Virus record (IMG/VR): IMGVR_UViG_3300020463_000111
Coordinates: 1-27,349 of that record
Strand: one strand, 5' to 3'
Source of the DNA: a virus
DNA: 27,349 nt
Positions within the stretch are counted from its first letter, which is position 1, and the number at the start of each line of letters is the position of its first letter. The notes below the pieces were generated by a model. It searched no databases. It saw only the letters and a list, made by a program, of their open reading frames with translations, and was not told the origin of the DNA. Position numbers and translations under genes: made by a program. Shown piece by piece: positions 1 to 24,013 of the stretch.

Positions 1-17
1 AATGGTATCAACAAGGT

Positions 18-293
18 ATGCCCGACATAATACCCGATGTACCACCTAGTCAAGCGAAGCTAATCGTAGTGCAGAAAGACGGACTGTATGAGTTATCGTA
101 CAAGATGTTGTTACCATACGATGCACCATATTGTGCGTTCGGAGATGGGAAGGAGATAGCACTTGGTGCGTTAGCAATGGGTGCTACGGCAGGTCAAGCT
201 GTAAACATTTGTAATGAACACTCTTTACAATGTGGTAAAGGTGTGGAATTATTCACTTTACATGGAGGTAACGATGAGCAGAAAGAATGCTAA
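18..293 (+). CDS. hypothetical phage protein, possibly 5'-truncated by window edge
   Basis: A 91-codon reading frame starting at the first ATG of the window. I do not recognise the family. The protein is soluble-looking, with no signal peptide or long hydrophobic stretch, and has scattered cysteines (residues 39, 65, 72 and the C-terminal residue 91). The frame stays open from the ATG back to base 3, so the true start may lie outside the window; the AAGGT just upstream of ATG 18 is too close to act as a normal ribosome binding site. Its last 20 bases overlap the next gene, which implies translational coupling at the head of the replication gene cluster. Both Pro-Asp pairs are encoded CCC-GA, the habit of the whole left arm. 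That it is coding is fairly secure; its start and function are not. Confidence 0.6.
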   Translation: MPDIIPDVPPSQAKLIVVQKDGLYELSYKMLLPYDAPYCAFGDGKEIALGALAMGATAGQAVNICNEHSLQCGKGVELFTLHGGNDEQKEC

Positions 294-600
294 GTATAAA
301 CGTAGTAACATACTACAGTTAGCAGACAAACTAACATCATCAGATAGAGAAGTAGAACATGGTGATGCTAGTAAAAACTTTGAGATGGTAGCAGATTTGT
401 GGAGTACATACTTGGGGGTGGATATCTTCCCCCATGAAGTACCCATGATGATGGTATTGTACAAGATTGCTAGGACTACTGAGAATCCTACCAATGTAGA
501 TAACTATGTGGATACATGTGGCTATGGTGCATTGGCAGGAGAACAAGTTCCCACAATCAATGAGGTTAAAGAACCTAGATTTACTAGGAGGGTTAGATGA
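274..600 (+). CDS. DUF6378-family phage protein
   Basis: A 108-aa protein that matches, by eye, the DUF6378 pattern common in tailed phages: a helix with D-R-E, then a HGDASKNFE segment (around residue 30), then DLWSTYLG, an F-P-H-E-V segment followed by MMMVLYKIAR (near residues 56-66), and a closing NVDNYVDTCGYGALAGE helix. The order 'Gly-Asp, Asn-Phe, Trp-x-x-Tyr-Leu, Met-Met-x-x-x-Lys-Ile-Ala-Arg, Val-Asp-x-x-Gly-Tyr' is the family signature. DUF6378 has no settled function; the all-helical layout resembles MazG-like nucleotide pyrophosphohydrolases, but that is inference. I chose the ATG at 274 because GGAGGT at 264-269 sits four bases upstream; in-frame ATGs at 214 and 262 lie upstream of, or too close to, that site. 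It overlaps the previous gene by 20 bases and the polymerase start by four (ATGA). Confidence 0.8.
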   Translation: MSRKNAKYKRSNILQLADKLTSSDREVEHGDASKNFEMVADLWSTYLGVDIFPHEVPMMMVLYKIARTTENPTNVDNYVDTCGYGALAGEQVPTINEVKEPRFTRRVR

Positions 601-2471
601 GAGTAATCACGATTGACTTTGAAACATACTATAGTCGTGAGTATTCCCTATCCAAGATGACAACTGAAGCCTACGTTAGAGACCCTCGCTTTGAGGTTAT
701 TGGTGTAGGTGTAAAGGTAGATGATAACCCACCCGATTGGTATAGTGGGGGGGATGTTGGTAGGTTTCTGAACTCACTAGACTACTCAGAAGATTCTATC
801 CTTGCACATAATACTGTGTTCGATGGTGCTATATTATCTTGGTTGTATGGTATCAAGCCTAGGTTTTGGTTTGATACTCTGTCTATGGCTAGACCATTCC
901 ACCACTCTACTGTGGGGGGTTCTCTCAAGGCACTAGCAAACTTCTATAACCTTGGTCAAAAAGGGGATGAAGTTATACAAGGTTTGGGTAAGAAACGCAA
1001 TGACTTCTCACCACAAGAACTTGACAAGTATGCTGACTACTGTTTGCAAGATGTAAACTTAACATACAAACTGTACGAAAAGCTAAGACAGAAAGTACCT
1101 GTGTCTGAACTTATGATTATAGATCAAACGATCCGTATGTATACTGAGCCTACTATTAAACTAGACAGGGGGGTACTATCTAACCATCTGCAAAAGGTTA
1201 AAGAAGATAAGAAGCAACTGATTGAATCCCTAGCACTTAAAGGTATTAGTGAGGACAGAGTTAAGAAGGCTCTTATGTCTAATCAAATCTTTGCAAAGAT
1301 ACTAGAAACTGTTGGTGTTGAACCACCGATGAAGACTAGCCTACGCACTGGTAAAGAAACCTATGCGTTTGCAAAGACAGATAAAGAGTTTACTGCTTTA
1401 CTCGACCACCCTAATCAAAAGGTGCAAACTCTAGTGGCGGCAAGACTTGGTACGAAGTCTACCATCGAAGAGACTAGGACTGAAAACCTTATGAAGGTAG
1501 CAGACAGGGGGGCATTACCTATTATGCTTAACTACTATGGCGCACATACAGGTAGGTTTAGTGGTGGCGATAAGCTGAACTTACAGAACTTACCTAGGAA
1601 TGGTGCGATTCGTAAGGCTATCACTGTACCCGAAGGTGATGTGATGATTGCTTGTGATTCATCACAGATAGAGGCCCGTATGGTTGCGTATATTGCAGGA
1701 CAAGATGATCTTGTGCAAGCGTTCCGTGAGGGCAGAGATGTATACAGTGAGTTTGCTACTGAAGTCTATGGCAAGAAGGTCACAAAAGATGATAAGATAC
1801 AAAGGTTTGTAGGTAAAACTTGTATTCTTGGACTCGGGTATGGCATGGGTCATGTAAAGTTTAGAGCCACTCTTGCTCTTGGGCAAGGTGGTATTGCTGT
1901 GGATATAGATGAGAACGAAGCCAAACGTATTGTAAACTTATACCGACAAAAGAACCATAAGATAGTGTCACTATGGCATAGCTGTGGTCATGCTCTTACT
2001 GGTATGGTGTCGGGTTCATCGGGTAACATATGTGAACTACTACCTTATGATAAGGATGGTATAACTTTACCCAATGGACTGAAGATAAAATACCATGCGT
2101 TGCGTAATACTGCTGATGGTTTTGAATATATATCTGACGCTAGGACTTTCCGTAAACTTACACAGAAAAGACTACTGACTGGTGAACAGCAGAAGATTGA
2201 CTGGACTAGGATTTACGGAGGTAAAGTTACAGAGAATGTGGTACAGGCCTTGGCTAGGATTGTGGTTGCAGAACAGATGGCATCAATCGGACAGTCATAT
2301 CATGTTGCTTTTCAAGTACATGATGAAGTGATTATCACTACCCGGGAACATGACACAGCACACGCACAGCAACTTGTTGAGAGGAAAATGTCTACACCAC
2401 CCCGCTGGGCAAAGGACTTGCCTGTTGCATGCGAGTCGGGTGTAGGTTATAATTATGGAGAAGCTAAATGA
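597..2471 (+). CDS. polA: family A DNA polymerase with 3'-5' exonuclease
   Basis: This 624-aa protein is the replicative DNA polymerase. The N-terminal DnaQ-like proofreading domain carries Exo I (D7-F-E9-T), Exo II (H71-N-x3-D76) and Exo III (Y148-x3-D152). The polymerase domain, from about residue 300, has motif A (D354-S-S-Q-I-E359-x-R361), the O-helix motif B (R403-x3-K407-x7-Y415-G416) and motif C (H575-D576-E577). No 5'-3' exonuclease domain is present, as in other phage family A polymerases, and the length fits that group. The residue aligned to E. coli Pol I Phe762 (eight after the O-helix Arg) is Leu411. AGGAGG at 586-591 decides the start, and the ATG overlaps the upstream TGA as ATGA. 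The stop likewise overlaps the next ATG, so the gene sits in a coupled operon with nucleases and helicase. Confidence 0.96.
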   Translation: MRVITIDFETYYSREYSLSKMTTEAYVRDPRFEVIGVGVKVDDNPPDWYSGGDVGRFLNSLDYSEDSILAHNTVFDGAILSWLYGIKPRFWFDTLSMARPFHHSTVGGSLKALANFYNLGQKGDEVIQGLGKKRNDFSPQELDKYADYCLQDVNLTYKLYEKLRQKVPVSELMIIDQTIRMYTEPTIKLDRGVLSNHLQKVKEDKKQLIESLALKGISEDRVKKALMSNQIFAKILETVGVEPPMKTSLRTGKETYAFAKTDKEFTALLDHPNQKVQTLVAARLGTKSTIEETRTENLMKVADRGALPIMLNYYGAHTGRFSGGDKLNLQNLPRNGAIRKAITVPEGDVMIACDSSQIEARMVAYIAGQDDLVQAFREGRDVYSEFATEVYGKKVTKDDKIQRFVGKTCILGLGYGMGHVKFRATLALGQGGIAVDIDENEAKRIVNLYRQKNHKIVSLWHSCGHALTGMVSGSSGNICELLPYDKDGITLPNGLKIKYHALRNTADGFEYISDARTFRKLTQKRLLTGEQQKIDWTRIYGGKVTENVVQALARIVVAEQMASIGQSYHVAFQVHDEVIITTREHDTAHAQQLVERKMSTPPRWAKDLPVACESGVGYNYGEAK

Positions 2472-2713
2472 TAAACGAAGATGATTTGCCTAACGAATTT
2501 AAGGCACACAACGATAAGAAACAAAGAATACTTGAGATACTTAGTAAGGTATCTGATGCTGTAAAGGAGAACCCTACGGCAGAGGAACTACTTGTCATGG
2601 TAAAGTTAGATGGAGAGTATGTAAGGTTCTCTAGTATACTAGAAAACAGTACAGAAACTGTAGCTATACTTGAAATGTTGAAGTATGACATAATGAAGAG
2701 GATGTCTACATGA
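2468..2713 (+). CDS. small acidic hypothetical protein
   Basis: An 81-aa protein that I cannot assign to a family. It begins with an acidic segment (MINEDDLPNEF), appears mostly helical, and has no hydrophobic span or obvious metal-binding residues. It is real by context: the ATG overlaps the polymerase stop codon in an ATGA, GGAGAA at 2457-2462 lies five bases upstream, and its own end overlaps the start of the nuclease gene by four bases. Coding-strand codon use matches its neighbours. Its position between the polymerase and a Cas4-like nuclease suggests an accessory role in replication or recombination, but nothing in the sequence shows what that role is. Confidence 0.75.
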   Translation: MINEDDLPNEFKAHNDKKQRILEILSKVSDAVKENPTAEELLVMVKLDGEYVRFSSILENSTETVAILEMLKYDIMKRMST

Positions 2714-3360
2714 CGTTATCACATTCATTCTCATCTATTAAAATGTATGAGAACTGCCCTAAAAGATACTACCATCAGAGGGTAACTAAAGAAGTAAAGG
2801 ACACAGGTAGTGATGCCACTATCTATGGTGAACGAGTACACGAAGCACTTGAACATCGGCTAGATAAACAGGTGGCATTACCTACTGAGTCTGAAGCCTA
2901 TGAACCTCTATGTAAAAGCATAGAGGATATGGGTGGAACTTTACAGGTAGAGCAGAAGCTAACACTAACTGAAAACCTTACACCAACAACTTGGTGGGAG
3001 AGAGACGCATGGCTACGATCCATACTTGATGTCCTAATTGTGCTTGATGATAAGGCTATCGTTATGGATTGGAAGACAGGTAAACGTAGACCCGATTTCT
3101 CACAGTTAGAAATGTTTGCGTTGCAAGTATTCCAACACTTCCCAAGCGTAAAGAAAGTCCAGTCAACTTTTGTATGGCTGAAGGATATGGCACTAGACTC
3201 GCATACATATCGTAGAGTAGAAACGGATGACATGTGGGTAAAATTACTAAGCAAAACAGAACGTATAAACCAGTCACTTATAAATAATAAATGGCCACCA
3301 AAGCCTAGTGGTTTATGTAGGTTTTGCCCTGCAAAAAATATTTGTGAATATTCAACTTGA
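2710..3360 (+). CDS. PD-(D/E)XK nuclease, RecB/Cas4-like with Fe-S cysteines
   Basis: A 216-aa nuclease of the PDDEXK_1 (RecB/Cas4-like) group. Visible catalytic pattern: GERVH with H44, E81 in V-E-Q-K-L, D107 in S-I-L-D-V, D120-W-K122 as the core D-x-K, and Q132 in S-Q-L-E-M. One cysteine near the N-terminus (C16, in ENCPKRYY) and three near the C-terminus (C203, C206, C212, in CRFCPAKNIC) match the spacing that binds a 4Fe-4S cluster in Cas4 and AddB nucleases. The protein probably trims or degrades single-stranded or broken DNA ends during replication, recombination or host DNA breakdown; polarity cannot be read from sequence. It overlaps its upstream neighbour by four bases. It is not a CRISPR adaptation gene: no cas1, cas2 or array is present. 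Confidence 0.9.
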   Translation: MTLSHSFSSIKMYENCPKRYYHQRVTKEVKDTGSDATIYGERVHEALEHRLDKQVALPTESEAYEPLCKSIEDMGGTLQVEQKLTLTENLTPTTWWERDAWLRSILDVLIVLDDKAIVMDWKTGKRRPDFSQLEMFALQVFQHFPSVKKVQSTFVWLKDMALDSHTYRRVETDDMWVKLLSKTERINQSLINNKWPPKPSGLCRFCPAKNICEYST

Positions 3361-3384
3361 CATCTATGTAAAGATAATTATATT
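3357..3384 (+). promoter_or_regulatory. weak candidate promoter before VRR-NUC gene
   Basis: TTGACA at 3357-3362 is a perfect -35 hexamer and TATATT at 3379-3384 is a near -10, spaced 16 bases apart. The 24-base gap here is one of very few in the left arm, and the following ATG at 3385 has no Shine-Dalgarno. The difficulty is that a transcript from this promoter would start a few bases after the ATG, so it could not express the full next gene. It may instead drive the helicase and later genes, or be chance in an A/T-rich gap. Confidence 0.25.
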
Positions 3385-3684
3385 ATGAGTAATACTCCCG
3401 AGGGAAAAATTAAACGTTGGTTAGATAAGTCACTCAAAGAACTTAACGTTTGGTTTTACAGTCCACAGAGTGGGCCTTTCGGTAAAGCAGGTATACCCGA
3501 TAGGGTAGCCATAGTGAGGGGTAGATTTGTAGGTATAGAGTGCAAGGCTGATAAGAGTAAGAAGCCGACTGCACTGCAAACCAAAACGATGAAGGAGATA
3601 GAGATGCAAGGTGGCAAATGTTTTTTAGTTTACGATAAAGAAACTATACAAGAAGTTATTACTTATATTAAGGGCGGACAATGA
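3385..3684 (+). CDS. VRR-NUC domain nuclease
   Basis: A 99-aa single-domain protein of the VRR-NUC branch of PD-(D/E)XK nucleases, the phage form of the domain found in FAN1 and resembling Holliday junction resolvases. The signature is intact: an N-terminal T-P-E-G-K helix, then G-x-P-D-R (near residues 36-40), G-R-F-V-G and I-E-C-K (about residues 50-53) carrying the catalytic Glu and Lys, then T-x-L-Q just after residue 60. The substrate is probably a branched or flapped replication intermediate. The length is normal for stand-alone phage VRR-NUC proteins. The start is inferred from the family; there is no evident ribosome binding site before ATG 3385, unlike most genes here. Its TGA overlaps the helicase ATG by four bases, so the two are likely translated together. 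Confidence 0.9.
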   Translation: MSNTPEGKIKRWLDKSLKELNVWFYSPQSGPFGKAGIPDRVAIVRGRFVGIECKADKSKKPTALQTKTMKEIEMQGGKCFLVYDKETIQEVITYIKGGQ

Positions 3685-5231
3685 TTGTTATTGAACAAGC
3701 AAAGGCTCTTGCTATTAAGCCAAAGCATCCTAATCAGATATTAAAAACCATACCTACAGCTCGCATGCTAAAGTATGACGGAGCAGAACTCGTTGTAGCA
3801 CCACACAAACTAGACGAAGTTAAGGTACTACGGAACTTAGGGTTCGAAGCACCATCACCAATCTTACATTATTATAATTGGGAGGGTAGGTTCACACCCT
3901 ACGAACACCAACGTATGACTTCTGCTTTCCTTACTATGCACAGAAAAGCGTTGGTACTTAATGAGATAGGAACTGGTAAAACACAGTCAGCATTGTGGGC
4001 ATCAGATTATCTTATGGAGATAGGAGAGATTAAGAAGGTTCTAATTATATCACCACTGTCTACACTTGAGAGGGTGTGGGGTGATGGTATCTTTATGAAC
4101 TTCCCTAATCGTACATCAGTAACTTTGCATGGAACAAGTGCAAGGAGAAAGAAGCTACTCAAAGCAGAAGCAGACTTCTATATTATAAACCACGATGGTT
4201 TCAATATTATATCCGATGATGCTGTCAACATGTTTGACCTTGTTATTGTAGATGAAGCCGCCGTTCTTAGAAACCCATCGACAAACAGATTCAAGACGCT
4301 CAGGAAGTTTATGGACAAACACCCGAGAACTCGTTTGTGGTTGATGACAGGTACACCTACACCGAATGATCCCACCGATGCTTGGGCATTAGCAAAGCTA
4401 GTGGATAGTCCACACTGCACCAAAACATTCACTGCTTTCAAGGAAGCTGTAATGATGAAGATAGGTCAGTGGAAGTGGATACCAAGACCCGAATCAATAG
4501 AGATAGTTAAACATATTCTATACCCTGCTGTTAGATACACTAGGGAAGAATGCTTAGACCTACCCGATACAGTCTATCAAACAAGAAAGATAGACCTCAC
4601 TCCCGAACAAAAGAAACACTACTCAATAATGCTAAAGCATTTTGTAACTCAGTTGGAGGAAGAAGGAACAATCACTGCTGTCAATGAAGCCGTGAAGTTA
4701 CAGAAGCTTGTGCAGATAAGTTGTGGTGTAGTGTACGGAGACGATGGACGGCACATCGAAGTTGATTGTGCGCCAAGAGTCAAAGTTGTTAAGGAGATTA
4801 TAGAGGAAGTAGGAGGTAAGGTTATAGTTTTTGTTCCCCTTACAGGAACATTAAACATGTTGGAGAGAGAACTGTCAAAGACTTGGGATGTAGCAGTTGT
4901 TAATGGAGCAGTGTCAGCTTCAAAACGAAACATCATATTCCATAACTTTCAGAATGAAAAGAATCCACATGTACTAATTGCTCACCCTGCGACTATGGCA
5001 CATGGTCTAACTCTTACTGCCGCATCTACTGTGGTGTGGTATGGGCCAGTGACAAGCAACGAGCAATACATTCAAGCGAATGGTCGCATTGAAAGGATAG
5101 GTAAGAAACATGTCTCAAACGTCATACACATAGAGTCAACAGACTTAGAGTATAAGATGTACGAGAGATTAAAAAATAAACAAAAACTACAAGGTCTTTT
5201 ACTAGACCTTATACAGAAGGAAACGAGGTAA
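3681..5231 (+). CDS. SNF2-like superfamily II helicase/ATPase
   Basis: A 516-aa superfamily 2 motor of the SNF2-like type common in podoviruses. In order: FTPYEHQ at about residues 71-77, Walker A G-T-G-K100-T, motif Ia around LIISPLSTLERVW, Walker B D191-E-A-A (a DEAD-box variant), motif III M-T-G-T-P near 222-226, and in the second RecA lobe motif V around AHGLTLTAAS and motif VI Q465-A-N-G-R469-I-E-R472-I-G. It probably uses ATP to translocate on double-stranded DNA, remodelling forks or stripping bound proteins. Such genes often sit beside VRR-NUC genes in phages, and here the pair is translationally coupled (ATGA at 3681-3684), suggesting a joint role in processing branched DNA. No DnaB-type replicative helicase is present in the window; unwinding at the fork more likely falls to the 951-aa primase-helicase. 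Confidence 0.92.
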   Translation: MIVIEQAKALAIKPKHPNQILKTIPTARMLKYDGAELVVAPHKLDEVKVLRNLGFEAPSPILHYYNWEGRFTPYEHQRMTSAFLTMHRKALVLNEIGTGKTQSALWASDYLMEIGEIKKVLIISPLSTLERVWGDGIFMNFPNRTSVTLHGTSARRKKLLKAEADFYIINHDGFNIISDDAVNMFDLVIVDEAAVLRNPSTNRFKTLRKFMDKHPRTRLWLMTGTPTPNDPTDAWALAKLVDSPHCTKTFTAFKEAVMMKIGQWKWIPRPESIEIVKHILYPAVRYTREECLDLPDTVYQTRKIDLTPEQKKHYSIMLKHFVTQLEEEGTITAVNEAVKLQKLVQISCGVVYGDDGRHIEVDCAPRVKVVKEIIEEVGGKVIVFVPLTGTLNMLERELSKTWDVAVVNGAVSASKRNIIFHNFQNEKNPHVLIAHPATMAHGLTLTAASTVVWYGPVTSNEQYIQANGRIERIGKKHVSNVIHIESTDLEYKMYERLKNKQKLQGLLLDLIQKETR

Positions 5232-5233
5232 CT

Positions 5234-5641
5234 ATGGAACTAACTACAGATAAAGTTATTGCCACATACCTCAAGTTGAGAAGTCAGAAGGAAGCTATAG
5301 AGTCTGAGACCAAAGAGAAGGTCGCAGATATAAAAGCTAATCTTCTCAAACTTGAAGCGTGGCTAAAAGAAAAGATGGATGCGGATGGTGAAACTTCTAA
5401 GAAGACACCATTTGGTACAGCATTCATAACGACTACCGACTTTGCCCAAGTGGGAGATTGGGATGCAGTCTTAGGTTTTATTCAAAAGAATGAAGCATGG
5501 GATATGCTAGAGAAAAGAGTCAGTAAGACAGCAGTGCGTGGCTATATAGACCACAACAAAGCTGTTCCCGATGGTGTTAATTATGGCACACGAATAGATG
5601 TCAATGTTCGTAAGCCTGTTAATAAGGCAGACGATAAATGA
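5234..5641 (+). CDS. conserved phage protein with N-terminal coiled coil
   Basis: A 135-aa protein. The first roughly 55 residues form a charged helix typical of a coiled coil (LRSQKEAIESE, then KEKVADIKANLLKLE). A compact C-terminal part follows, with TPFGTAF, a DW at the start of a helix, and LEKRVSKTAVRGYI. I recall this layout from uncharacterised proteins beside SSB and recombination genes in many phages; a loose resemblance to Gam-type nuclease inhibitors is possible but unproven. It begins two bases after the helicase stop, with GAGG in the end of the helicase gene acting as ribosome binding site. Its stop overlaps the next gene by ATGA. It is probably a DNA-replication or recombination accessory protein. 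Confidence 0.75.
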   Translation: MELTTDKVIATYLKLRSQKEAIESETKEKVADIKANLLKLEAWLKEKMDADGETSKKTPFGTAFITTTDFAQVGDWDAVLGFIQKNEAWDMLEKRVSKTAVRGYIDHNKAVPDGVNYGTRIDVNVRKPVNKADDK

Positions 5642-6330
5642 TTGCACCGAAGATATCTATCAAAGGCTCACAGTTTCGTGCTGTCAGTGGTGACGAGGAG
5701 ACTGTACTGGATTACAGTATAGATGTTGTCATTGTCGGTGCGAATCCAAAGCTATCCAAGTCTTGGTATGCTGATGCTTGGTCTGAAGATAGCCAATCTT
5801 CTACTCCCGATTGCTACTCACTAGATGGTGTACATCCAAACAAGAACAGTCATGCCATGCAGAATGACATGTGTGTCTCTTGCCCACAGAACGCTTGGGG
5901 TTCTAGGACTACACCAACAGGTAACAAAGTTAAGGCTTGTGTCGATCAGAAACGATTGGCAGTTGTCTTAGCAGAGGGGCCCTTTAGTGAAGCATACTTA
6001 CTACAAGTTACTCCTGCGTCTTTGAAGAACTTGAATGCTTATCAAAAAGAATTGTCCATGCGTGGTATTGCACCCGAGATAGTAAGGACAAGGATAGAGT
6101 TTGATACACTCGCATCTTTCCCAAAGCTACGATTCAGCTTCCGTGGATTTAACGATGATGCAAATCAAACTCTTGTCGATGATCATTTGGGGACTAAGCA
6201 GACTAGGATTGTTACAGGAGAACTTGCTGTAGAAACTAAACAATCCAACCATTCATTAGACGATTTCGGTTTTGTCGAAGAGGATGGCTTTATATCAACT
6301 AACGAACTAGGAGGTTCAGACTATGAATAA
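5638..6330 (+). CDS. conserved phage protein with four-Cys zinc-like site
   Basis: A 230-aa protein sitting directly before the SSB gene and overlapping it by eight bases. Four cysteines (C59, C79, C82, C101, spaced C-x19-C-x2-C-x18-C) in the sequence DCYSLDG ... MCVSCPQNAWGS ... KACVDQ look like a zinc-binding unit. The middle part (LAVVL, then YLLQVTPASLKNLN) reads as beta strands, perhaps an OB-like fold. The C-terminal 40 residues are acidic, as in many ssDNA-binding proteins. I remember similar genes next to gp2.5-like SSB in marine podoviruses, where they are annotated only as hypothetical. A role as a second ssDNA-binding or recombination mediator protein would fit position, zinc site and acidic tail, but is inference. 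Confidence 0.75.
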   Translation: MIAPKISIKGSQFRAVSGDEETVLDYSIDVVIVGANPKLSKSWYADAWSEDSQSSTPDCYSLDGVHPNKNSHAMQNDMCVSCPQNAWGSRTTPTGNKVKACVDQKRLAVVLAEGPFSEAYLLQVTPASLKNLNAYQKELSMRGIAPEIVRTRIEFDTLASFPKLRFSFRGFNDDANQTLVDDHLGTKQTRIVTGELAVETKQSNHSLDDFGFVEEDGFISTNELGGSDYE

Positions 6331-7048
6331 AACTTTTACAACCGCTAAAGGGCTTGCGTACTACCCATATATCAGTGCGCCCGACACTAAGTTTGACGAG
6401 CAAGGACACTACAAAGTTAACCTTTGCTTATCAGAGGAAGATGCTCAACCAGTTATCGAACTCATAAAGCAAACTGTTGTTGAAGGTATTAAGGCTTTGA
6501 AGAAAGACAAGCCTAATATGGAAATCAAACAAGCACCGCTACCATTTAGTAAAGAACTAGATGAGGATGGTAATCCTACAGGTAACGTGATTGTTAAATT
6601 CAAATCCAAAGCCGCATACAAACCTGCTGTCTTTGATAGCAAAGGTAACATGATGACCAACTCTAACATCTATGGTGGGTCAGAACTAAAAGTAAACGGC
6701 TCATGTGCTTTCTTTCATACAGCTATGATTGGTGCAGGTGTATCAATCAGACTTAGAGCAGTACAAGTTATCCAATATGTAGAGGGTGCGAATGGTGCTA
6801 ATAAGTTTGGCTTTGATGAGGTAGAAGGATTCACCATAGAAGAAGATGTTTCTGTGAGTGAGACCCCTCCGGCAGCAGCTGCAGCGGAAGAACCAACACC
6901 TGCTCCTGCACCAAAGGTAGTGCAAGCTATCAAACCTGTGCAACAAGCTAAGCCTGTTGAAGAACCAAAGGCGGCAAAGACTGTCAGTGGTGCTGATGAC
7001 CTAGCCGCAGAGATCGCACAACTGGTAGGAGATGTGGACAATGGCTGA
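6323..7048 (+). CDS. ssb: T7 gp2.5-like single-stranded DNA-binding protein
   Basis: A 241-aa OB-fold ssDNA-binding protein. It tracks T7 gp2.5 closely in pattern: an opening F-T-T-A-K-G with Y-I-x-x-P-D, then G-H-Y-K-V-N-L-C-L, a helix rich in lysine, VKFKSKA, FDSKGN followed by IYGGSELKV, and a closing strand GAGVSIRLRAVQVIQ. These are the strands of the gp2.5 OB barrel. After residue 180 comes a low-complexity Ala/Pro/Glu linker (AAAAAEEPTPAPAPK) and a mildly acidic tail. The final residue is Gly rather than the aromatic residue that T7 gp2.5 uses to contact its polymerase. GGAGG at 6312-6316 sets the start, and the gene overlaps the previous one by eight bases. It coats single strands and coordinates polymerase and primase-helicase. 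Confidence 0.87.
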   Translation: MNKTFTTAKGLAYYPYISAPDTKFDEQGHYKVNLCLSEEDAQPVIELIKQTVVEGIKALKKDKPNMEIKQAPLPFSKELDEDGNPTGNVIVKFKSKAAYKPAVFDSKGNMMTNSNIYGGSELKVNGSCAFFHTAMIGAGVSIRLRAVQVIQYVEGANGANKFGFDEVEGFTIEEDVSVSETPPAAAAAEEPTPAPAPKVVQAIKPVQQAKPVEEPKAAKTVSGADDLAAEIAQLVGDVDNG

Positions 7049-7325
7049 TACACCACCTCTTGATTTCAAGAAAGTGGAAGCCTTACGGAAGCATATGCTT
7101 TTGACTACAAGTAATATGGCAGAACTTCTTGATGTATCTCGTATGACTTACTATGGTTGGGTTAGAGGTAATAGAATCCGAAAGAACAACGATAAGAAAG
7201 TACGGATTACACTCAAAGGATTGCTTGATATTATGACAGATGGGTGGCCTGCACCCGATGTCATAGCTATGGAACAAAAGTATAGATTCCAAAGGCTTCT
7301 TGAGGTTATGGACAAAACAGGGTAG
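7041..7325 (+). CDS. small helix-turn-helix DNA-binding protein
   Basis: A 94-aa protein with one clear helix-turn-helix near residues 18-43: TTSNMAELLDV as helix 2 and SRMTYYGWVRG as the recognition helix, followed by a basic stretch (RIRKNNDKK). This is the Xre-like arrangement. I chose the ATG at 7041 rather than 7032: AGGAG at 7027-7031 is nine bases before 7041 but immediately abuts 7032. The gene overlaps the SSB end by eight bases and is followed by a 49-base gap with a hairpin and a TATAAT box. It is therefore well placed to act on that gap and control the primase-helicase gene or the switch out of early expression; this is inference from position. It is the only candidate transcription regulator in the window. 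Confidence 0.8.
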   Translation: MADTPPLDFKKVEALRKHMLLTTSNMAELLDVSRMTYYGWVRGNRIRKNNDKKVRITLKGLLDIMTDGWPAPDVIAMEQKYRFQRLLEVMDKTG

Positions 7326-7331
7326 TATAAT
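7326..7331 (+). promoter_or_regulatory. candidate -10 box (TATAAT) before primase gene
   Basis: A perfect TATAAT directly follows the stop codon of the helix-turn-helix gene. No good -35 lies at the usual distance (TTGAGG at 7300-7305 would need a 20-base spacer), so it would rely on an activator or be weak. A start point about seven bases downstream would fall inside the hairpin listed next. Confidence 0.3.
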
Positions 7332-7358
7332 AGGGGGAGGGTTTCTACTCTCCCCTAT
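7330..7358 (+). other. strong hairpin in leader of primase-helicase gene
   Basis: ATA-G-GGGGAG (7330-7339) pairs with CTCCCCTAT (7350-7358) with one bulged G at 7333. The stem continues with G7340-T7349 and G7341-C7348, closing a six-base loop (TTTCTA). The stem is 11 pairs, G/C-rich in its core. No T-run follows, so it is not a classical intrinsic terminator. The Shine-Dalgarno (AGGTAGG, 7364-7370) and ATG 7375 lie just downstream. It could be a processing site, an attenuator or a translational element. Confidence 0.55.
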
Positions 7359-7374
7359 AACATAGGTAGGTAAC

Positions 7375-10230
7375 ATGAACACGCTAGAGTTTCTCAAGCG
7401 AGTCCTACCGATAGAAGGGTTTTATGTAACCACTGTTATCAACCAAGATGGTAGGAAACAGGGTTTCTTTGAGTCGGTAGAAGAACTTGCACATACATGT
7501 GAAAGATTGGATAGCACAGGTAACAACACTTATTTTGCTATATCTTCTTTCAGAGTTAAAGGTAATAGAAAGCAAGACAACGTTAGGGCTACTAAGGTTG
7601 TAGCTATAGATGTGGATTGTGGTGAAGGAAAGCCATACGCATCTTGGAAAGAAGGACTACAAGAACTAGGTAAATTTGTACACACAATGAGTTTACCCAA
7701 ACCGATGATAGTATATTCGGGTAATGGGTTGCATGTGTATTGGGTACTAACAGAAGAATTAGAACCACAAGACTGGAAGCCACTAGCCAATGCTATGAAG
7801 CAAGCGGCTTTGGATAAAGAGTTTAAGATTGATGCAGGACTTACAGCTAACAGTGCGTTAGTGCTAAGACCTATTGGTACACACAATCCTAAGAATGGTA
7901 ACGAGGTAAAACTTTTAGTAGACGCAGAACCAGTCGAAGTTTCTAGTCTGAAAGAATCTCTATCTTATTTCTATCGTGATGTGCCCGGGGCGCAAGAAGA
8001 TCACACTCGTGACAACACGTTGCTAGAGAATCTTGTGTCTAAACAAGAGTTTCCACTTGCTGTTGGTTCAATAGTTAAATCTAAATGTAAGCAGATTGAC
8101 TGGGCTGTAGACAATCAAGACAAGGTTGATGAACCATTATGGTATGACCTAATAGGTGTAGCCGCTTTCTGTAATGATGCAGAGAAGACAGCAGTAGAGT
8201 GGAGTCAGAGGCATCCGAAGTTTGATTACCATGCTACTGTAAGTAAACTCAACCACTGGAAAGATTCAGCTAGTGGCCCAACAACTTGTGCTAAGTTTGA
8301 TATCGACAGACCGAACGGGTGTAGAGGATGTGTTTACAAAGGTAAGATAGGATCACCTGCAAGACTAGGTGTTCAATACCAAGAAGCACCACTATCAGCA
8401 GAAGCACCCGATGCTCAAGCTAATCAGATACCAATACCAAAACCATTTAAGAGAACACAAGATGGTATAAAAGTTACCATAGATGATACAGATATAGATG
8501 TCTGTAAGTTTGATATATACCCTGTCAGCTATGGACTAGATGAATCACTAGGGTATGAGATAGTTAGATACCACTGGAATAGACCTCACATGGGGTGGCA
8601 AAACCTTGTGCTACGACAGGCATATCTAACAGAAGGCAATCGTGAGTTCGCTACAGCTATAGCGGATCAAGGGATTGTATTATATAACAAAAGACAAACG
8701 GAGTATTTTCAACTTATGTTAAGAACATATATGGATGAGTTGAGGCAAATCCGTACTATGACTAACTTATATTCTACTATGGGTTGGAAAGAGAAGAATA
8801 CGGCATTTGTCTTAGGCGATACACTTCTAAAGCGAACAGCAGAGGGAGTGACAGAAGAATCAATCAGTCTTGCATCGGGCATACAGAAGCAAGGTGCAGA
8901 CTTATATACCAGTAAAGGTGATGCAAACCAGTGGATAAACCTAACATCAGTGTTAGAAAAAGCAGGTTTGAAATCACATATGTTTACTTTAGGTGTTGGC
9001 TTTTCAGCACCACTGTATAACTTCACAGGACTCAAGGGATTAACTGTATCCCTATATGGGCCAACTGGTGGTGGTAAAACATTAGCACAATACTGGGCGC
9101 AATCTATCTACGGCAACCCCGACAAGCTACACTTTGCGGCTAAGTATACACAGAACAGCTTGTTCTCAAGACTTGGTACATACGCTAACCTGCCGCTAAC
9201 AATAGACGAAGTGACTATGATGCAGGATAAAGAGGTTGGTGACTTCTGTTATTGGGTATCACAGGGTAGAGATAAGGCTAGGTTAAATCGTAATGCCGAA
9301 GAAAGAGATGCAAAGACATGGGCAACACCTGTCATAGTATCTACCAACAAGTCTCTACAAAGTAAGCTGATAGCGTCTGGTCTGGATACAGATGCACAGA
9401 TGGCTCGTCTACTAGAACTTACTGTGCCGTCTGCACCTTTGTTTACTCGAGGCTCTGAAGCAGGTCGTAAAATATATGAAGCTGTCCACGCTCATTATGG
9501 GTCAGTAGGAAAACAATATATCATAAACTTGTTGTCAATGGGTGAAGAAGGTATCCAGTCTGCGATAGCTGAAGCATCAGATAACTTCCATAAGAAGTAT
9601 AAAGCTAAGTTTAGTGGTGAAGAAAGATACTGGGAACAGTCAATCATACTAGCAGACTTAGGTATGAAACTAGCTACTGAGTGGGGATTGATTAAGTTTG
9701 ATTACACACAAGCTACCGAGTGGGTACTAGCACAGATAGGTGCTATCCGTAGAACAGTACAAGAGAACCAAGTTGATTGCTTTGATCTTGTTGCTGAGTA
9801 TATGGCTGACTGTGCTGATACTTCTGTAACCATCATGCACACTGTAGGGCAGAAACCACAGCCCGACTTCTCTAGAATACCAAGAGGTGACATCCGAATC
9901 AGATTAGATGTGTTCAGAAAATCTGCATCAGAAGTATTTGATAAGGGTAGTATGATGATTGATAGGACTCACTTTAGAAAGTGGTTGTCTGTACGCGGCG
10001 CTGATTACAAGTCATTCAAACAGGAACTTGCTGTGGAGAATGCGTTAGCTACACCTCGATCAGAGAAAGCATCACTAGGTAAAGACACACCAATCAAACT
10101 AGCACAAAGCTATGTCATAGGATTTAATCTAACACACCCAAGATTCCAAAGCCTGCTTGAGAATGCAGATACGGCGGCTGACGATATGGCATATGGACAG
10201 CTACAGGTAGTGAAAGATAAAGACGTTTAA
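7375..10230 (+). CDS. AEP-type primase fused to DUF927/SF3-like helicase
   Basis: A 951-aa primase-helicase. The N-terminal third is an archaeo-eukaryotic primase: catalytic D79-V-D81 in AIDVDCG, the S-G-N-G-L-H120 motif, and R165 in LVLRPIGTHNPKNG. A central part holds a possible zinc site (C305, C316, C319 in the pattern TC ... CRGC, perhaps with C238 or C266). The C-terminal half, from about residue 380, is the DUF927-type ATPase: Walker A G562-P-T-G-G-G-K568-T569, Walker B L-T-I-D611-E612, and a sensor-like STN near 656-658. It should both prime and unwind at the fork, replacing separate DnaG and DnaB proteins; neither is seen here. AGGTAGG at 7364-7370 gives the ribosome binding site. 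The stop at 10228-10230 is followed by an overlapping open frame lacking a normal start (see 10214-10429), so the product may be longer by frameshifting. Confidence 0.9.
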   Translation: MNTLEFLKRVLPIEGFYVTTVINQDGRKQGFFESVEELAHTCERLDSTGNNTYFAISSFRVKGNRKQDNVRATKVVAIDVDCGEGKPYASWKEGLQELGKFVHTMSLPKPMIVYSGNGLHVYWVLTEELEPQDWKPLANAMKQAALDKEFKIDAGLTANSALVLRPIGTHNPKNGNEVKLLVDAEPVEVSSLKESLSYFYRDVPGAQEDHTRDNTLLENLVSKQEFPLAVGSIVKSKCKQIDWAVDNQDKVDEPLWYDLIGVAAFCNDAEKTAVEWSQRHPKFDYHATVSKLNHWKDSASGPTTCAKFDIDRPNGCRGCVYKGKIGSPARLGVQYQEAPLSAEAPDAQANQIPIPKPFKRTQDGIKVTIDDTDIDVCKFDIYPVSYGLDESLGYEIVRYHWNRPHMGWQNLVLRQAYLTEGNREFATAIADQGIVLYNKRQTEYFQLMLRTYMDELRQIRTMTNLYSTMGWKEKNTAFVLGDTLLKRTAEGVTEESISLASGIQKQGADLYTSKGDANQWINLTSVLEKAGLKSHMFTLGVGFSAPLYNFTGLKGLTVSLYGPTGGGKTLAQYWAQSIYGNPDKLHFAAKYTQNSLFSRLGTYANLPLTIDEVTMMQDKEVGDFCYWVSQGRDKARLNRNAEERDAKTWATPVIVSTNKSLQSKLIASGLDTDAQMARLLELTVPSAPLFTRGSEAGRKIYEAVHAHYGSVGKQYIINLLSMGEEGIQSAIAEASDNFHKKYKAKFSGEERYWEQSIILADLGMKLATEWGLIKFDYTQATEWVLAQIGAIRRTVQENQVDCFDLVAEYMADCADTSVTIMHTVGQKPQPDFSRIPRGDIRIRLDVFRKSASEVFDKGSMMIDRTHFRKWLSVRGADYKSFKQELAVENALATPRSEKASLGKDTPIKLAQSYVIGFNLTHPRFQSLLENADTAADDMAYGQLQVVKDKDV

Positions 10231-10429
10231 AAAGATAAGACTACCCAATGGTAGATACCTTTATCTTAGGTTAGATACTCCGCCATACAAGTTTGCACAC
10301 CCTAAAACTATAGAGCGTATAAACAAGAAATTGCTTAGCGCAGGTAGAGTTTGGGAGAAAAGACAGGAGTATCTGAAAAAACAAGCCTCTGAGAAGCCCG
10401 TACAGAGGGGTAAAGACCCTTCTAGGTAG
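10214..10429 (+). CDS. short basic ORF without canonical start; possible +1 frameshift extension
   Basis: An open frame of 71 codons runs from just after a TGA (10211-10213) to TAG 10427-10429. It contains no ATG or GTG, and its only TTG is deep inside at 10331. The translation looks like a true protein: a strand-like K-K-I-R-L-P-N-G-R-Y-L-Y-L-R-L segment, an HPKTIERINKKLL helix, then a highly charged tail ending GKDPSR. It starts inside the primase-helicase gene and lies in its +1 frame. Two readings fit: a start at a non-standard codon (ATA 10217 or ACG 10223), or a +1 shift at GTT-TAA (10225-10230) that adds about 65 residues to the primase-helicase. A lost start codon or sequencing error is also possible. 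The frame fills what would otherwise be a roughly 210-base empty stretch in a genome with almost no gaps. Confidence 0.55.
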   Translation, partial: KIKTFKKIRLPNGRYLYLRLDTPPYKFAHPKTIERINKKLLSAGRVWEKRQEYLKKQASEKPVQRGKDPSR

Positions 10430-10439
10430 TCTAGCTACC
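10425..10439. terminator. candidate bidirectional terminator at convergent junction
   Basis: GGTAG (10425-10429) and CTACC (10435-10439) form a perfect five-pair stem with loop TCTAG, exactly where the rightward and leftward transcription units meet (stops at 10429 and 10442). An alternative longer pairing is GGGGTA (10407-10412) with TACCCC (10436-10441). Neither strand has a T-run after the stem, so the call rests on location and symmetry. Confidence 0.35.
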
Positions 10440-10441
10440 CC

Positions 10442-13400
10442 CTAATTTGCCTCTACTCCGTAAATATCTAGCAACTCATTGATGGTTGGACGTATTGTAG
10501 TTGGTGCAAACTTCCTATATCTGTTCACACTATTCTTCTTAGCAGACTTCAATGACTTGTTTGCAGAACCAACGAAGTCTTTAAAGAAAAACTCTGTGCC
10601 TTTGGTATCTCTGTTGTGTTCCTTTACCAAGTCTAAGATTCTACGAACCTCATCTCTATCACCCTCTAGCTTAGCTTTGATATATGCTTGCTTGTAGTGA
10701 GCCTTCATATCTTGGACATAGGCTTGAGTCTGCTTTGTCATTCTAATAACATCATTCTGCACCATGACTTGATATGGATAGAAGCCCATCATTCTAAATA
10801 CAGAAACCGTAGTACCCACTTCATTATCTAAGACTGTACCATCTGCCCTAGTAATCTTTCCATCATGTAGATATGTCATACCATCAACCAAACCTCTTAC
10901 AGCAGAAGATGGTACGTCTCTAAGTATATCTGTAAATCGTGTTGTTCCGTCTTTGAGGCCCACAGTCTCTGCACCATACCTGAGAAGTTGTGTTCCTGTG
11001 CCAAACAACCCTGCCATCCCTGAGTAGACAGGCCCAAAGAAGTTCTCTGCTTCTCTCCAATACTCCCCAGCATGACTTTTTGCTTTGAAAGCACCAGTCA
11101 ATGGAATCAAATCACCAAACCCAAGTCGTGTAGATATTGTTGCTCCTGTCCACTGGTCAAGAAATCCTCTCATAAATGTCGGTGATGCACCGGGGATGAA
11201 CGCATCAACAAGCCGTGCAGTTTCTTCCTCTACGCTCTTCATCTTGATACCAAAAGTTTGAGCAAGAGTATCAATCAAGTCCATCAAGTCGTCAGCAAAT
11301 GGTAGTCCTTTCATACCCGACATAATGAACAGCATAGACAACATAGCTATTCTGCCTTTCTTATCCATACCTTTCATTAGCTGAACACTGATGATGACGA
11401 ACTGTTTATACATGAAAATATATTGTGCTAAGTTTCCTCTAGCCATCTCGGGTCTGTTATACATAGCGTATTCACCCTGTGATGTATTCACTGCCTTCGT
11501 AGCAAACTCTTTCGCATTCATCTCAACCTCTGCCCTTTCGTCTACCGGAAGGTTAGAGAGATTAGTTCCAAAACGATTGGATGATAGTATTCTTTCTCGT
11601 TCCATCCTGTAGGCAGCTAGGAAGGTAGTACGTCTGTTAAGTTGTTCTGTGTAAGAAAACGCAGACATCCATGTTTTGATCAAACCATTATAGTTGTTAC
11701 TAGCTCTACCACCTCTTGATGTACCAACGAGTGCGTTAAACTGTGCAGCTTGCAGCACACCTGCGGCTGTAGCATCTAGCATAGCATCAGCTTCATCTGG
11801 AGATAGACCGTGTTGACGCTGTAATCTATCAGCTTCTGCCTGTAATGCAGGGTCTCTTGTAGGGTTAGCTACCTGAACCATGTATTCATAGGTGGATAAC
11901 CTAAAATTACCAGCGTTATAAACTGCTCGGGTCATAGCTCCAGCAGATTTACCCAGTCCAAAGCCACCACCATAACCTCTGTTTGGATTATAACTACCAA
12001 GATAAGGTATGGCATGAGTAACCATAGACATCATGTTTACTGCAGCAGTAGCAATAGAACCACCAAGCTGTAGTAGTACAGCATACAGCTTGAACCTAGA
12101 ACCAACCTCGCCAGACAGAATGTCTTCTGTTGAGTCTTGGATACTTGCTGCATCTGCATAGAACTGTAGTAGTTTTTTAGCTTCTTCTCTGGAATCTTCA
12201 CCACGACCTTCGTTAGGTATCTCGTTACCATTTCTGTCTTTTGCTTTGACAGGAGCATTTTGGTCAGCAGAATGACGATATTGATATGCGTAAGCATCGT
12301 ATGCTTTTCTAGCTGCTTCTCTTTGTGCTTCTGTACCTCGTAGCGTAGCTGCTTCTAAAGCTTGTAGTTTATCAGGATCACCTCTGAACTTGTTGTTGTC
12401 TGCCATAATATCGTTCAGCTGCCATGAGTAAGTAATCTTACCTGCTACATGAGCTTGTGTTTCTAAATGTTCTGCGACACTTCTAATGACATCTTTATCC
12501 CAACCGGGGTTACCTGATCTCTGCAAACTTCTTCGTGCAGTAGATTGAACACTGGTTAGAGATGTAATAATACGTTGTCGTTCTTGAGGTGTAAGACCAA
12601 TATCTAAACGCTGAACTACACTCATAAACTCTGTAAGATTCATAGAGTTAGTAAGTGGTTGTGATTGTCTAGCTTTTGCTACCTGCGCTCTAAACTGTAT
12701 GTTTCTAGTTTGCCCAGACTTATCTCTCATCTGGTAGGTTATAGGGTCAGCACCCTCTGCTACAATATCTTGTAGTCCTTCTGCTATTCTTTGTGCATCA
12801 GACTCAGCTTCAGTTTGAAAGAATGGTATTGCTCCAGCATAAGTTTCTTCTAGCTCAACAGCTTTACCTGTGTTTGCATCATATGCCTGCATACGAACTT
12901 GCCACTTACCTCGTCTGGTAAATGGTACATACCCAGTTACAAGTGTACGTCTTGCATTGAAGTCTGCATTAACAGCTCTTTGATCTAACAAAAACAAGTT
13001 TTGTATAGCGTTAGTTACATTGTACGCTGTACTTTCAGTAAACTGTAATGCTCTTAATCTTGGGATAGAGTCAATAATATCTCTATATCTATCAGTCTGA
13101 AACTCTGCAGTGTTATCTCTACCGTTTTGCCAGTCTGTTACTTTTGCATCGTTATGGAAAGCTCTGTTAATAGCTGCTAAAAATGTTCCAGCTTTATCAA
13201 TAGACTCTTGGATTGGCCCATCTAATGTAGCGCCTTCCATATAAAGATTAGAATATTCTTCTATAATCCTTCTAAATATTTGTACATCTTCTCCACTAGG
13301 TAGTGCGCCACCTTCACCTGTAAATGTTCTAAAGTTTTCTAGTGCTTGTTCTCTTTGTCCTTTGACTGCATCCATATTAGCCTGAAGGACATCAACAGCT

Positions 13401-16400
13401 GCTTGGTTTACAGCTGCTCTGTTCTCAGAATAGATACGCCATGTATTATCAGTAACAGTAAATTCTTGGAATTTAGTTTCACCATTACTTAATTCAACAG
13501 TGAACCCTCGTTCAAACTCTTCTCTGGATACTGTACCCATTTCTTCTAGCTGTCTACGAACGTCAGCATTTACTTGTGGATCACCTGAATCCATACCTTG
13601 CATAAGAACTTCTAGGTCTCGTATATTCTGATCTGAGTTTTGAGTGGCTTTTAATTGTGCACCATAGGCAAGCATCTCTCCTGCTTGCTCAAGCTCAAGT
13701 TTAGTTGGCCCTTTACTGCTAAGACCCATCCAATCTGGTGTATGTGTAAATGCTGTAAGTCTTTCATACTCAGACATCATACGTCTTGTCTTACCAGACT
13801 GAAGCTGGAAGATTTTAAAGATCATAGATAGACCTTCACTACGCTGTGCTTTATTATCTAGCGTCTGTACCGCTTCAGCCATCTCACCAAAGAAACGACT
13901 TAGCGATTTACCTTTAGCTCTTGGTAATTTCCTTACTAGCTCAGATACACTATCAAATCCACCGAACTTACCTGATCTACGGTTAAGGGCATCGGCTTGG
14001 AAAAAGTTAGTAGCATGGTCAGCTCGTACATCTTCGATTTGGAATCGACCGTACTCACTCTCTGACTGTAGTTGTTTTAGGTTAAGAGCTAACTGTTGCG
14101 CGCCTACAACACCTCTGCCACCTGTGCGTAAGTTCTTACGAGATTGACTTAAAAAGTACCGGGTGAGATCAGGATCGCCAACCGCTAACCAATCACCTAA
14201 CCCTATAACATCTAGCACAGACTGTATTACATTCTTGAGTCTATCTATCATACTGATGTCAAGCGCAGCTGCTCGTTCAGCAAGCACTTCTTCAACAGCT
14301 TCTAGTATGTTCATGTCAGGATTAGCTTGTTTTATAATATCAGCCGCAGCCCGTACATGACCATCAGTTCTATATATTTCACGGAAGATAGAGTTCATTC
14401 TTTCACGAGGCATGAAGGCACGGAAACCAAAGTGGCCTAATGCTTCGTGAGCAACAGTCAACCTGATCTGCTCTTTAGTCCGTGCATAGTCACTAAAGAT
14501 AATAACTTGGTCACCAACAGAATAACCAACAGCTTCTACTGTATCAAAATCACCAAGTGGTCTACCAGCTTGAGCACGTTTATAAAGCTCAGGGTTAGTC
14601 CGAGCTAGTTCCTGTACGTTAGCTACGATAGTAACAGTTGGTTTTACTTTTAGTTTTTTAAGAACTTGTTTGACAATAAGGTCTATATCACCCCTACCCA
14701 AAGCTTCTGTAGGTTTGCCATCTGCCCTACGAAAATTACCCTCTTCATTTTTAGAGTCCATCTCTTTCATAATCTCAGCGGTAGGTTGCAGCCTGTTTAC
14801 TCTTGCGTTTTCACGTTGAGTACGTCTACCTTTTTTAAGTAGCCGTTGGCCTTCTGCCTGCTGTGAGTTGATTTCAGTCTGTGTTTCGGGTGTTGGGTCA
14901 GGTACAATACGACCATTAAACAACCTTTTAGTTTTTAGATTACCCCTATTATCAAAGAAATCTTTGAGTGAGTAACCATTGGCCATCAGATAGTTTCTAT
15001 CTGAGTTAGCAAAATAAGTTTGTATACGATTGATCTCACGGCTACCGGTAGACTCACCGCCCTGCTGAGTTCTTTGCTCTACAGAAGCTCTATCAGACGT
15101 AAGTTCAACCACAGGATTATATCCACTGAAAGATTTAAACTCGTATCTCTCTAAGTGTGAGTTAAGGATATCCTCTAGCAACCTAGAGTTTTCTAGCTGT
15201 ATCTGTGCTGTTTTTTCAGCAGCAACTTTTCTACCTTTTTTACCTAAAGCTTCTTCATATGCTCTTCTAAAAGCTTCAAAGTCAATCTTATCTCCAGCTG
15301 CCTGTTGTCTTCGTAGAGCATTAAGTACCCTATCAGCTGTGTCCTGTCCTAATACTTCACCTTGAGTTTCTTGTGATATAGCTTGGTTAATAGCTTCTTG
15401 CTGTGGTGATGTGTACCACGCTGGCATACTAGTAAGAGCTACTTGAACTTCAGCAAGCAGTTGGTTTTTAGTGGCATACTCTAACCAAGGTTTGTTCCTA
15501 CCCTTGTTAGAACCTCTAGTAAATGTACCTTCTAACGGTTGTGCGTTAGCTTGAGTTATAAACGCATCATGTAATGCTTTACGCTGTTGTGGCGTAAACT
15601 CAGTTTTATTTAGATACTCAATAGCACTAGCCTGAATGCCCTGCTTAGTAAGGTTTGAGTCAACTTCAAAAAATGCAAAACCCATAAGCTGATGTGCATA
15701 CGACCATGCTTCACCATGCTTAGTAAAATCAGTAGTTGTATCAAACTTAGCTTTGAACTCATTGAGTTCTTCTTGTGCAGATAGCTTTAAGCTATAGTAA
15801 TTATCGTCATATATCTTTTGTGCAATATCACCATTCACAGCATTGCCAGCTACTAGCTGACCCCACTGTTCTCTAGCTTGTTCAGGCAATCTATCCAAAG
15901 GTACAGTACCAGCAGGTGCTAAACTGTTCCATGCTTCTATAGGTGTCTGACCTGTAACATCAACAAAGACTGGGCTTATACGAGAGTCTGATTCCTGAGC
16001 TTGTTTTTGACGAGCTTCTTGGCGAGCTTCCCGAATTGTTCGTTGCTCTTCTTGTTGATTCGCTGTTGTCTGGCGTACTGACGCTTTTCTGAGGCGCTCT
16101 TTGCCCCTACCCTCTCGGGTAGTTTGTTCGCGGAGGTTGTCTCTTCCTCGAACTTCGCCGCTAGGCTGGGTTTGTTGGCGTACAGCCACTTCATCTGTGC
16201 TTTGCTCTTGAACGGCATCTGTCCTCCTTTGTTGTGGTCTATCAAAACTTGCTACAATACCTTCCATTTCTGCAACAATATTATCTTGTTCTGCTACATC
16301 ATTATTATCTATAGCAACTTGAAAATCATCTACATACTCTTGAATGTTTTCTCTAGGTATGTTGTTAGCCACCATCTGGTTGACAAGTGGTGTTATCTCA

Positions 16401-18871: not shown

Positions 18872-18873
18872 GT

Positions 18874-21327: not shown

Positions 21328-21336
21328 TCTAGACCC

Positions 21337-24011: not shown

Positions 24012-24013
24012 AA

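Follow-up and report, generated by a model that had tools for sequence, protein, structure and literature searches.

Avoidance of short DNA words confined to the early arm in a group of uncultured phages

Two convergent arms and the words missing from one of them

The stretch of DNA analyzed here (the window, 27,349 bases) is the virus record IMGVR_UViG_3300020463_000111 of IMG/VR, designated G000 in the genome comparisons. Two gene arms converge in it: a left, early arm with genes for a nucleotide-metabolism protein, DNA polymerase A, an exonuclease, an endonuclease, an SNF2-like helicase, a gp2.5-like single-stranded DNA-binding protein (SSB) and a primase/helicase-like protein, and a late arm that ends in a giant gene. 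The pentamers CCAGA, CCTGA and CCGGA (collectively CCDGA), together with other short words, are depleted from the early arm only.

A preliminary description of the window, made from the letters and their open reading frames (ORFs), held that these three words are absent from the plus strand of positions 1-10429 and that all 18 proline-aspartate or proline-glutamate (Pro-Asp/Glu) pairs encoded there use CCC. Exact counts agree: CCAGA 0, CCTGA 0, CCGGA 0 and CCCGA 19, with CCC in 18/18 pairs of the 12 left-arm ORFs, in which prolines overall are written as CCA (54), CCT (46), CCC (29) and CCG (13). The complementary pattern also stands: TCNGG, found 10 times on the plus strand, is mainly TCGGG (6, beside TCTGG 2, TCAGG 1 and TCCGG 1), and TCN-serine-glycine pairs use TCG in 5/6 cases. 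The exceptions are the four already listed, with TCCGG at 6868 and not 6867. In the giant gene CCC was found in 3/19 Pro-Asp/Glu pairs (about 3 of about 18 by the earlier estimate), and across all 8 late genes of the window in 4/40.

ORFs were called mechanically (at least 60 amino acids, greedy by length, overlapping ones dropped). In the first null, synonymous codons were permuted within each gene in 300 shuffles, with proteins and per-gene codon usage fixed; a stricter null preserved in addition the dinucleotide across codon boundaries. Against the first null, the 12 early ORFs contain 0 CCDGA versus 21.0 expected (shuffle range 13-29), 4 TCHGG, the reverse complement, versus 21.1 (9-31), and 19 CCCGA versus 5.5 (1-13). 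Under the stricter null, the early-arm counts are 0 versus 14.1 (5-23) for CCDGA and 4 versus 12.1 (5-20) for TCHGG. The late arm of the window is as expected under the first null (CCDGA 47 versus 45.3, TCHGG 50 versus 53.1). Neither an expected frequency of these words in 1-10429 nor equal usage in the two arms, either of which would speak against the effect, was found. The shortage of CCDGA in the early arm is real and far beyond chance, and strong under-representation of short words against a null that preserves composition and protein is the pattern by which restriction-site avoidance is recognized.

The left arm of the window is also short of CCAGC, GCAGC, AGCTC, ACCGT and ACCGG; GGWCC, CCWGG and CGACG have zero occurrences in both arms, and GC content is equal in both. 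The cross-genome arm tests described below exclude genes oriented against the arm direction, and the window contributes 10 early genes (9693 bp) to them, compared with the 12 left-arm ORFs of the window null. The features of the window are collected in Table 1.

Table 1. Features of the window (shared words are CCAGC, GCAGC and AGCTC, pooled)
Feature	Positions	Strand	Basis
Early (left) arm, upstream end incomplete; CCDGA/TCHGG and other early-only words avoided	1..10429	+	
Early-arm reading frames with 18/18 Pro-Asp/Glu pairs as CCC-GA	18..10230	+	
CCCGA, first ten	21, 33, 732, 1629, 3091, 3397, 3496, 4322 (other frame), 4488, 4563		
CCCGA, remaining nine	4602, 5567, 5806, 6073, 6380, 7254, 8407, 9118, 9862		
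Exception: CCTGA (TCAGG on plus strand)	4300..4304	-	
Exception: CCGGA (TCCGG on plus strand)	6868..6872	-	
Exceptions: two CCAGA (TCTGG on plus strand at 9376, 9381)	9376..9385	-	
Convergent junction of the two arms, conserved in relatives	10430..10441	.	ORFs, synteny
Last kilobase of giant late gene; shared words 1 versus 2.6 expected in the window	10442..11443	-	local codon shuffle
Giant late gene, 2809 amino acids, final gene of late arm; words at expectation beyond its last kilobase	10442..18871	-	
Remaining late arm: transglycosylase-like, internal virion, peptidase-like and endolysin-like genes; CCDGA as expected	11444..27302	-	

Relatives were collected from IMG/VR, where the best 80 of 168 were kept. 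In the near-complete ones (52-55 kb), an early arm of ~17-18 kb and a ~35-kb late arm, with the giant gene at its end, converge, and the window holds ~10 kb of the early arm. As the same junction is present in relatives, the one in the window is not a chimera. The early arm of the relatives encodes small proteins, an ATPase, a metallopeptidase/VWA-like protein, polymerase, exonuclease, helicase, an SSB-like protein and a primase/helicase. The consecutive AAA ATPase, DUF3150-like protein and DUF2201 metallopeptidase/VWA-like protein at L083:2189-5173, in the early arm of relative G001, resemble N4 genes 24-25 as annotated.

No near match to the first 25,000 bases of the window was found among 50,697 phage records. 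The closest named phages are distant: the polymerase is 37% identical to that of Rhizobium phage RHph_TM3_14A (KPP25 also 37%), the terminase 43% to that of Pseudomonas phage Rollin, and the portal ~27% to those of HMO-2011-type marine phages. The giant gene occupies the position of the N4 virion RNA polymerase, and the C-terminal part of its product matches only PHROG families of unknown function. Searches against Pfam and PDB sequences gave no match, and an N4-like virion RNA polymerase is not claimed on the likeness of position.

Early-only words in uncultured relatives and in isolates

Eight near-complete relatives of ~54 kb have 17, 12, 5, 5, 10, 11, 11 and 8 early-only pentamers, respectively, and zero late-only pentamers in each, so that the nesting is one-way. 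In 300 permutations of gene labels the mean number of early-only words was below 1 and the maximum 2-5; G005 and G006 have 5 words each versus a permutation maximum of 4. Two pairs, G001/G003 and G005/G006, are close relatives and not independent. Counts near the cut-offs shift slightly between shuffle runs (KPP25 late-only 3 or 2, N4 late-only 0 or 1, HTVC033P early-only 4 or 5), and G001, which represents the lineage of the window, has 15 early-only words at the cut-off of a separate scan of five-letter words. In the clade of the window, CCDGA is depleted from the early arm (2 versus 35 expected in G001, 8 versus 35 in G003) and at expectation in the late arm (85 versus 82 and 82 versus 86). 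The early-only avoidance is thus repeated in 8/8 near-complete relatives, whereas the particular words are not: word sets differ between lineages and CCDGA avoidance is not universal.

Among the genomes listed, CCAGC is avoided early in 6/6, GCAGC in five (the pooled G010/G011 table giving 0.23 for it), AGCTC in four and CCAGA in three, while CCTGA is avoided in the clade of the window only. CCAGA is avoided but CCTGA is not in G007 and G009, both are avoided in the clade of the window, and neither in G010/G011; the shortage of CCGGA accompanies a broader shortage of CCGG. With these separations and the many other words avoided, the single motif proposed in the preliminary description, CC-not-C-GA, does not hold, and CCDGA is ruled out as one recognition site. 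Some modification-dependent enzymes read CCDG; these were set aside, as CCAGT and CCTGC are not depleted.

The turnover of word sets proceeds by silent changes. At loci with a polymerase at least 91.5% identical, CCC occupies all 34 CCN-GA sites of the polymerase gene (19/19 loci), and the prolines of these 19 polymerases in total comprise CCA 108, CCC 52, CCG 20 and CCT 178. Two loci at 89-90% polymerase identity have CCT at 4/4 such sites, and more distant bands are mixed. When conserved pairs were compared between G001 and G005, excluding proteins longer than 1500 amino acids, the 27 early Pro-Asp/Glu pairs used CCC in 25/27 cases in G001 and CCT in 23/27 in G005; the late pairs show no such switch, with CCC in 4/38 in G001. 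The two lineages have written nearly all of their early Pro-Asp/Glu sites with different silent codon choices.

Other words are avoided throughout the genome. All eight near-complete relatives have little or no GGWCC in either arm: GGACC/GGTCC number 0 in coding sequence, except for 8 versus 93 expected in the far late arm of a six-genome pool. CCWGG is avoided in both arms in the clade of the window, G007 and G009, and CGACG in two clades. GGWCC, CCWGG, GCWGC and the CCGG/GATC-type words resemble orthodox Type II sites in their palindromic form; CCAGA, CCTGA, CCAGC, AGCTC and ACCGT do not.

Three further observations concern word usage in this group: (i) the early arms of G005 and G006 (loci L018/L019) are almost without GATC, which in G005 is found 2 times versus 40 expected early and 26 versus 102 late (reduced); (ii) A/T-rich words (AAATT, AATT, AAAA) lie far under the codon-shuffle expectation in the window and its relatives, more so early (AAATT in G001: 7 versus 50 early, 83 versus 148 late), with no obvious restriction explanation; and (iii) the plus strand of L054 (15491 bases), the locus of another relative, follows a rule of its own, with CCTGA 33 but CCTGT 1, and CCAGT 33 but CCAGA 1.

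Isolates provide an independent check of words that were chosen in the uncultured genomes. The SAR11 phage HTVC033P, on HTCC1062, has five early-only words, with observed/expected counts of 2/11 early and 54/50 late for AGCTC, 1/8 and 75/72 for CCAGC, and 0/13 and 46/65 for CCTGA; these three words stay below expectation to ~22 kb, ~7 kb past the arm junction (6 versus 15.3 in 17.5-22.5 kb). Five early-only words were also found in HMO-2011 (GCAGC 4/28 early, 88/115 late), two in HTVC104P (AGCTC 1/12 early, 36/47 late) and one by the same cut-off in HTVC103P, namely ACAGG (ACAGG/CCTGT being avoided early only; AGCTC 0/11 early, 25/43 late). Rollin has two early-only words and one late-only (50 kb examined), and KPP25 and RHph_TM3_14A have zero early-only words, with three late-only in KPP25. 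The pattern is strong in the uncultured group and recurs in some marine isolates, but it is not general to phages with early and late arms.

Strand symmetry, position and the likely cause

Every asymmetric early-only word examined is depleted alike on both strands. In G001, the observed/expected counts of a word and of its reverse complement in the same coding strand are 1/20.1 and 2/10.6 for CCAGA, 1/13.8 and 2/14.7 for AGCTC, and 0/9.7 and 1/7.8 for CCAGC. Since asymmetric words and their reverse complements are equally depleted, the constraint acts on double-stranded DNA. Together with the shuffles, this symmetry supports the earlier proposal of a DNA-level, nuclease-like constraint on both strands that is confined to the early region.

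The shared words, which were picked from the same uncultured genomes, were used to profile position. In six genomes their observed/expected counts are 15/176 (0.09) in the promoter-proximal early half and 29/186 (0.16) in the other early half; within 2 kb past the junction they are 62/84, over the 6 kb that follow 354/384, and in the far late arm 1061/1053 (1.0). G010/G011 run in the same direction, with 23/98, 39/98, 18/35, 146/154 and 408/393 in the same zones. When shuffling was confined to the final kilobase of the oppositely transcribed giant gene, this piece contained 21 shared words versus 48.1 expected (~0.4) over the window and its eight near-complete relatives, and was below expectation in 9/9 genomes. 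Depletion follows position and not gene class, and it fades just past the junction.

The likeliest cause, to which we assign a probability of about 0.58, is avoidance of restriction-like sites in only that part of the DNA which is first to enter the host. We infer all three of its components (a nuclease as the agent, entry of the early arm ahead of the late one, and a protective function) from the word pattern. Host nucleases reading these words would attack the leading DNA before the phage makes any protection; DNA entering later would meet a phage-made countermeasure or a disabled host, and the same words could be tolerated in it. The words missing from both arms (GGWCC, CCWGG in the lineage of the window, and CGACG) would be sites of enzymes that are not neutralized. 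An arm-limited effect needs an arm-limited exposure, because a nuclease cut anywhere in linear phage DNA kills. Entry of the early arm first, with exposure lasting until a product of that arm shields the remainder, predicts that nesting runs one way, that both strands are affected, that word sets vary with lineage and that the effect tapers off at its edge; all four were seen. The exclusive use of CCC-GA for Pro-Asp/Glu in the lineage of the window follows, as its early set includes CCAGA, CCTGA and CCGG words.

Several observations weigh against this explanation. Within the early arm, CCDGA in the clade of the window is flat (0.14, 0.11), and the shared words return in the 0.7-1 kb of the early arm that adjoins the divergent late genes. 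The Roseobacter phages CRP-2 and CRP-3 have zero early-only words, and CRP-603 and CRP-9 have one each, CRP-9 also one late-only. The early regions of T7 and N4 enter the cell first, and both phages have zero early-only words in the same arm test. Neither a host nor an enzyme nor an anti-restriction gene was identified, and the near-complete records are cut at different places. Most of the avoided words are asymmetric pentamers, unlike the orthodox Type II sites for which a survey of phages mainly reports avoidance (PMC6286503). By itself, the explanation leaves the lack of the pattern in T7 and the enzymes for asymmetric pentamers unaccounted for.

Two observations concern a physical genome end. 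The return of the shared words might fit an end just inside that 0.7-1 kb stretch. On the early side, of 26 contigs extending as far as 7 kb upstream of the polymerase, 12 terminate between 7.2 and 8.9 kb (hand tally), a weak hint of a genome end there; the contig ends on the terminase side show no sharp pile-up.

As for protective functions, none of the known anti-restriction families was found among ten scanned G001 genes (nine early and one late). One small, weakly acidic early ORF, with an isoelectric point of 4.49, was found among the early ORFs of seven genomes, in which many early genes are of unknown function; on this single ORF, an acidic DNA-mimic anti-restriction protein is not claimed.

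The most serious alternative, which we regard as unlikely, is a position-dependent constraint on double-stranded DNA other than restriction at entry, for example proximity to a replication origin in the early arm, a phage or host protein that acts at specific sites of early DNA during replication or transcription, or a defence directed only at early-transcribed DNA. Position dependence and strand symmetry leave the agent unnamed, and CCAGC and GCAGC are common to all lineages examined, the pattern expected of an agent intrinsic to the phage; however, the word sets turn over between lineages, and the words avoided genome-wide include palindromes such as GGWCC and CCWGG, both known as restriction sites. 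A set of nucleases would also account more readily for several unrelated words avoided together.

Separate origins for the arms, suggested in the preliminary description, would imply that the replication module came from a lineage infecting other hosts and was added to a late arm already in place. Marine HMO-2011-type phages are reported to exchange modules (PMC8528129), but we consider such an exchange very improbable here and reject it on the co-inheritance of the arms. All eight near-complete relatives carry both, and identities fall in parallel (95, 93, 90, 89, ~80, 79 and 75% for the polymerase; 91, 91, 83, 83, 65-67, 71 and 71% for the internal virion protein). The words particular to one lineage arose once the lineages had diverged, the depletion extends across the junction, and the arms have equal GC.

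Selection at the level of mRNA or translation, whether through codon-pair bias, ribosome pausing or a toxin that cleaves early transcripts, is scarcely credible. The effect does appear as codon choice, and the early genes form a single transcription unit, yet an effect tied to the coding strand was not found: strand symmetry rules it out, and the shortage extends into an oppositely transcribed gene. Chance, composition or assembly artefact is of negligible probability even for a motif picked after looking, because 300 shuffles under the first null never gave fewer than 13 CCDGA, independent contigs share the effect and the junction synteny, and words chosen in the uncultured group recur in HTVC033P (CCAGC, AGCTC, CCTGA) and HMO-2011 (GCAGC).

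Restriction avoidance in first-entering DNA has a further possible consequence, which we put forward tentatively and consider somewhat doubtful: the density of avoided words may record in the sequence itself how and when the genome enters, being close to zero across the early arm from its leading end, fading shortly beyond the junction and neutral in DNA that arrives once protection is established. Genomes of uncultured phages could then directly reveal which end leads, how much DNA is exposed and which host nucleases are faced, including specificities for asymmetric pentamers. For ocean phages of unknown infection cycle, static sequence would yield a testable statement on which DNA meets the defences of the host and on the duration of that contact. 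As the cultured HTVC033P on HTCC1062 shows the pattern, the idea can be tested at the bench. Splitting genomes by arm reveals avoidance of asymmetric words, and whole-genome surveys may miss such cases.

Comparison with known systems

A literature search covering titles and abstract openings returned no description of multi-word, early-arm-limited avoidance in a phage. By gene, the nearest named relatives are the HMO-2011-type and the Rollin/RHph_TM/KPP25-type phages, which likewise have convergent early and late arms; RHph and KPP25 differ from the group of the window in having no early-only words. In T7, the first gene product, 0.3/Ocr as annotated, protects the DNA that enters later, a division similar to the one proposed here, but T7 is without early-only words, and no Ocr-like gene was found among the genes scanned here.

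The leading region of conjugative plasmids is reported to carry anti-defence genes (PMC11602122). In such plasmids, as probably in these phages, the DNA that enters first is specially adapted to the defences of the host; the adaptation described in that report consists of genes and not of word avoidance confined to the leading region. The phage survey, which scores whole genomes, describes avoidance mainly of orthodox Type II sites and hardly ever of sites of other types (PMC6286503). The near-total absence of GGWCC and CCWGG here agrees with that description, whereas the early-only words are mostly non-palindromic and invisible at the level of the whole genome.

The closest precedent is the first-step transfer of the T5 family. 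T5-type phages are reported to resist EcoRI despite carrying its sites, and the pre-early region of a T5 relative to be without EcoRI sites (PMC9345386, PMC13250531), so that sites are absent from one end region and present elsewhere, as in the window. The differences are that (i) the reported T5 case involves one palindromic enzyme site and ~8-9% of the genome, whereas here 5-17 words, mostly asymmetric, and about a third of the genome are involved, and (ii) the order of entry is one that we infer here. With these differences, the pattern of the window may be regarded as a broad relative of the T5 case.

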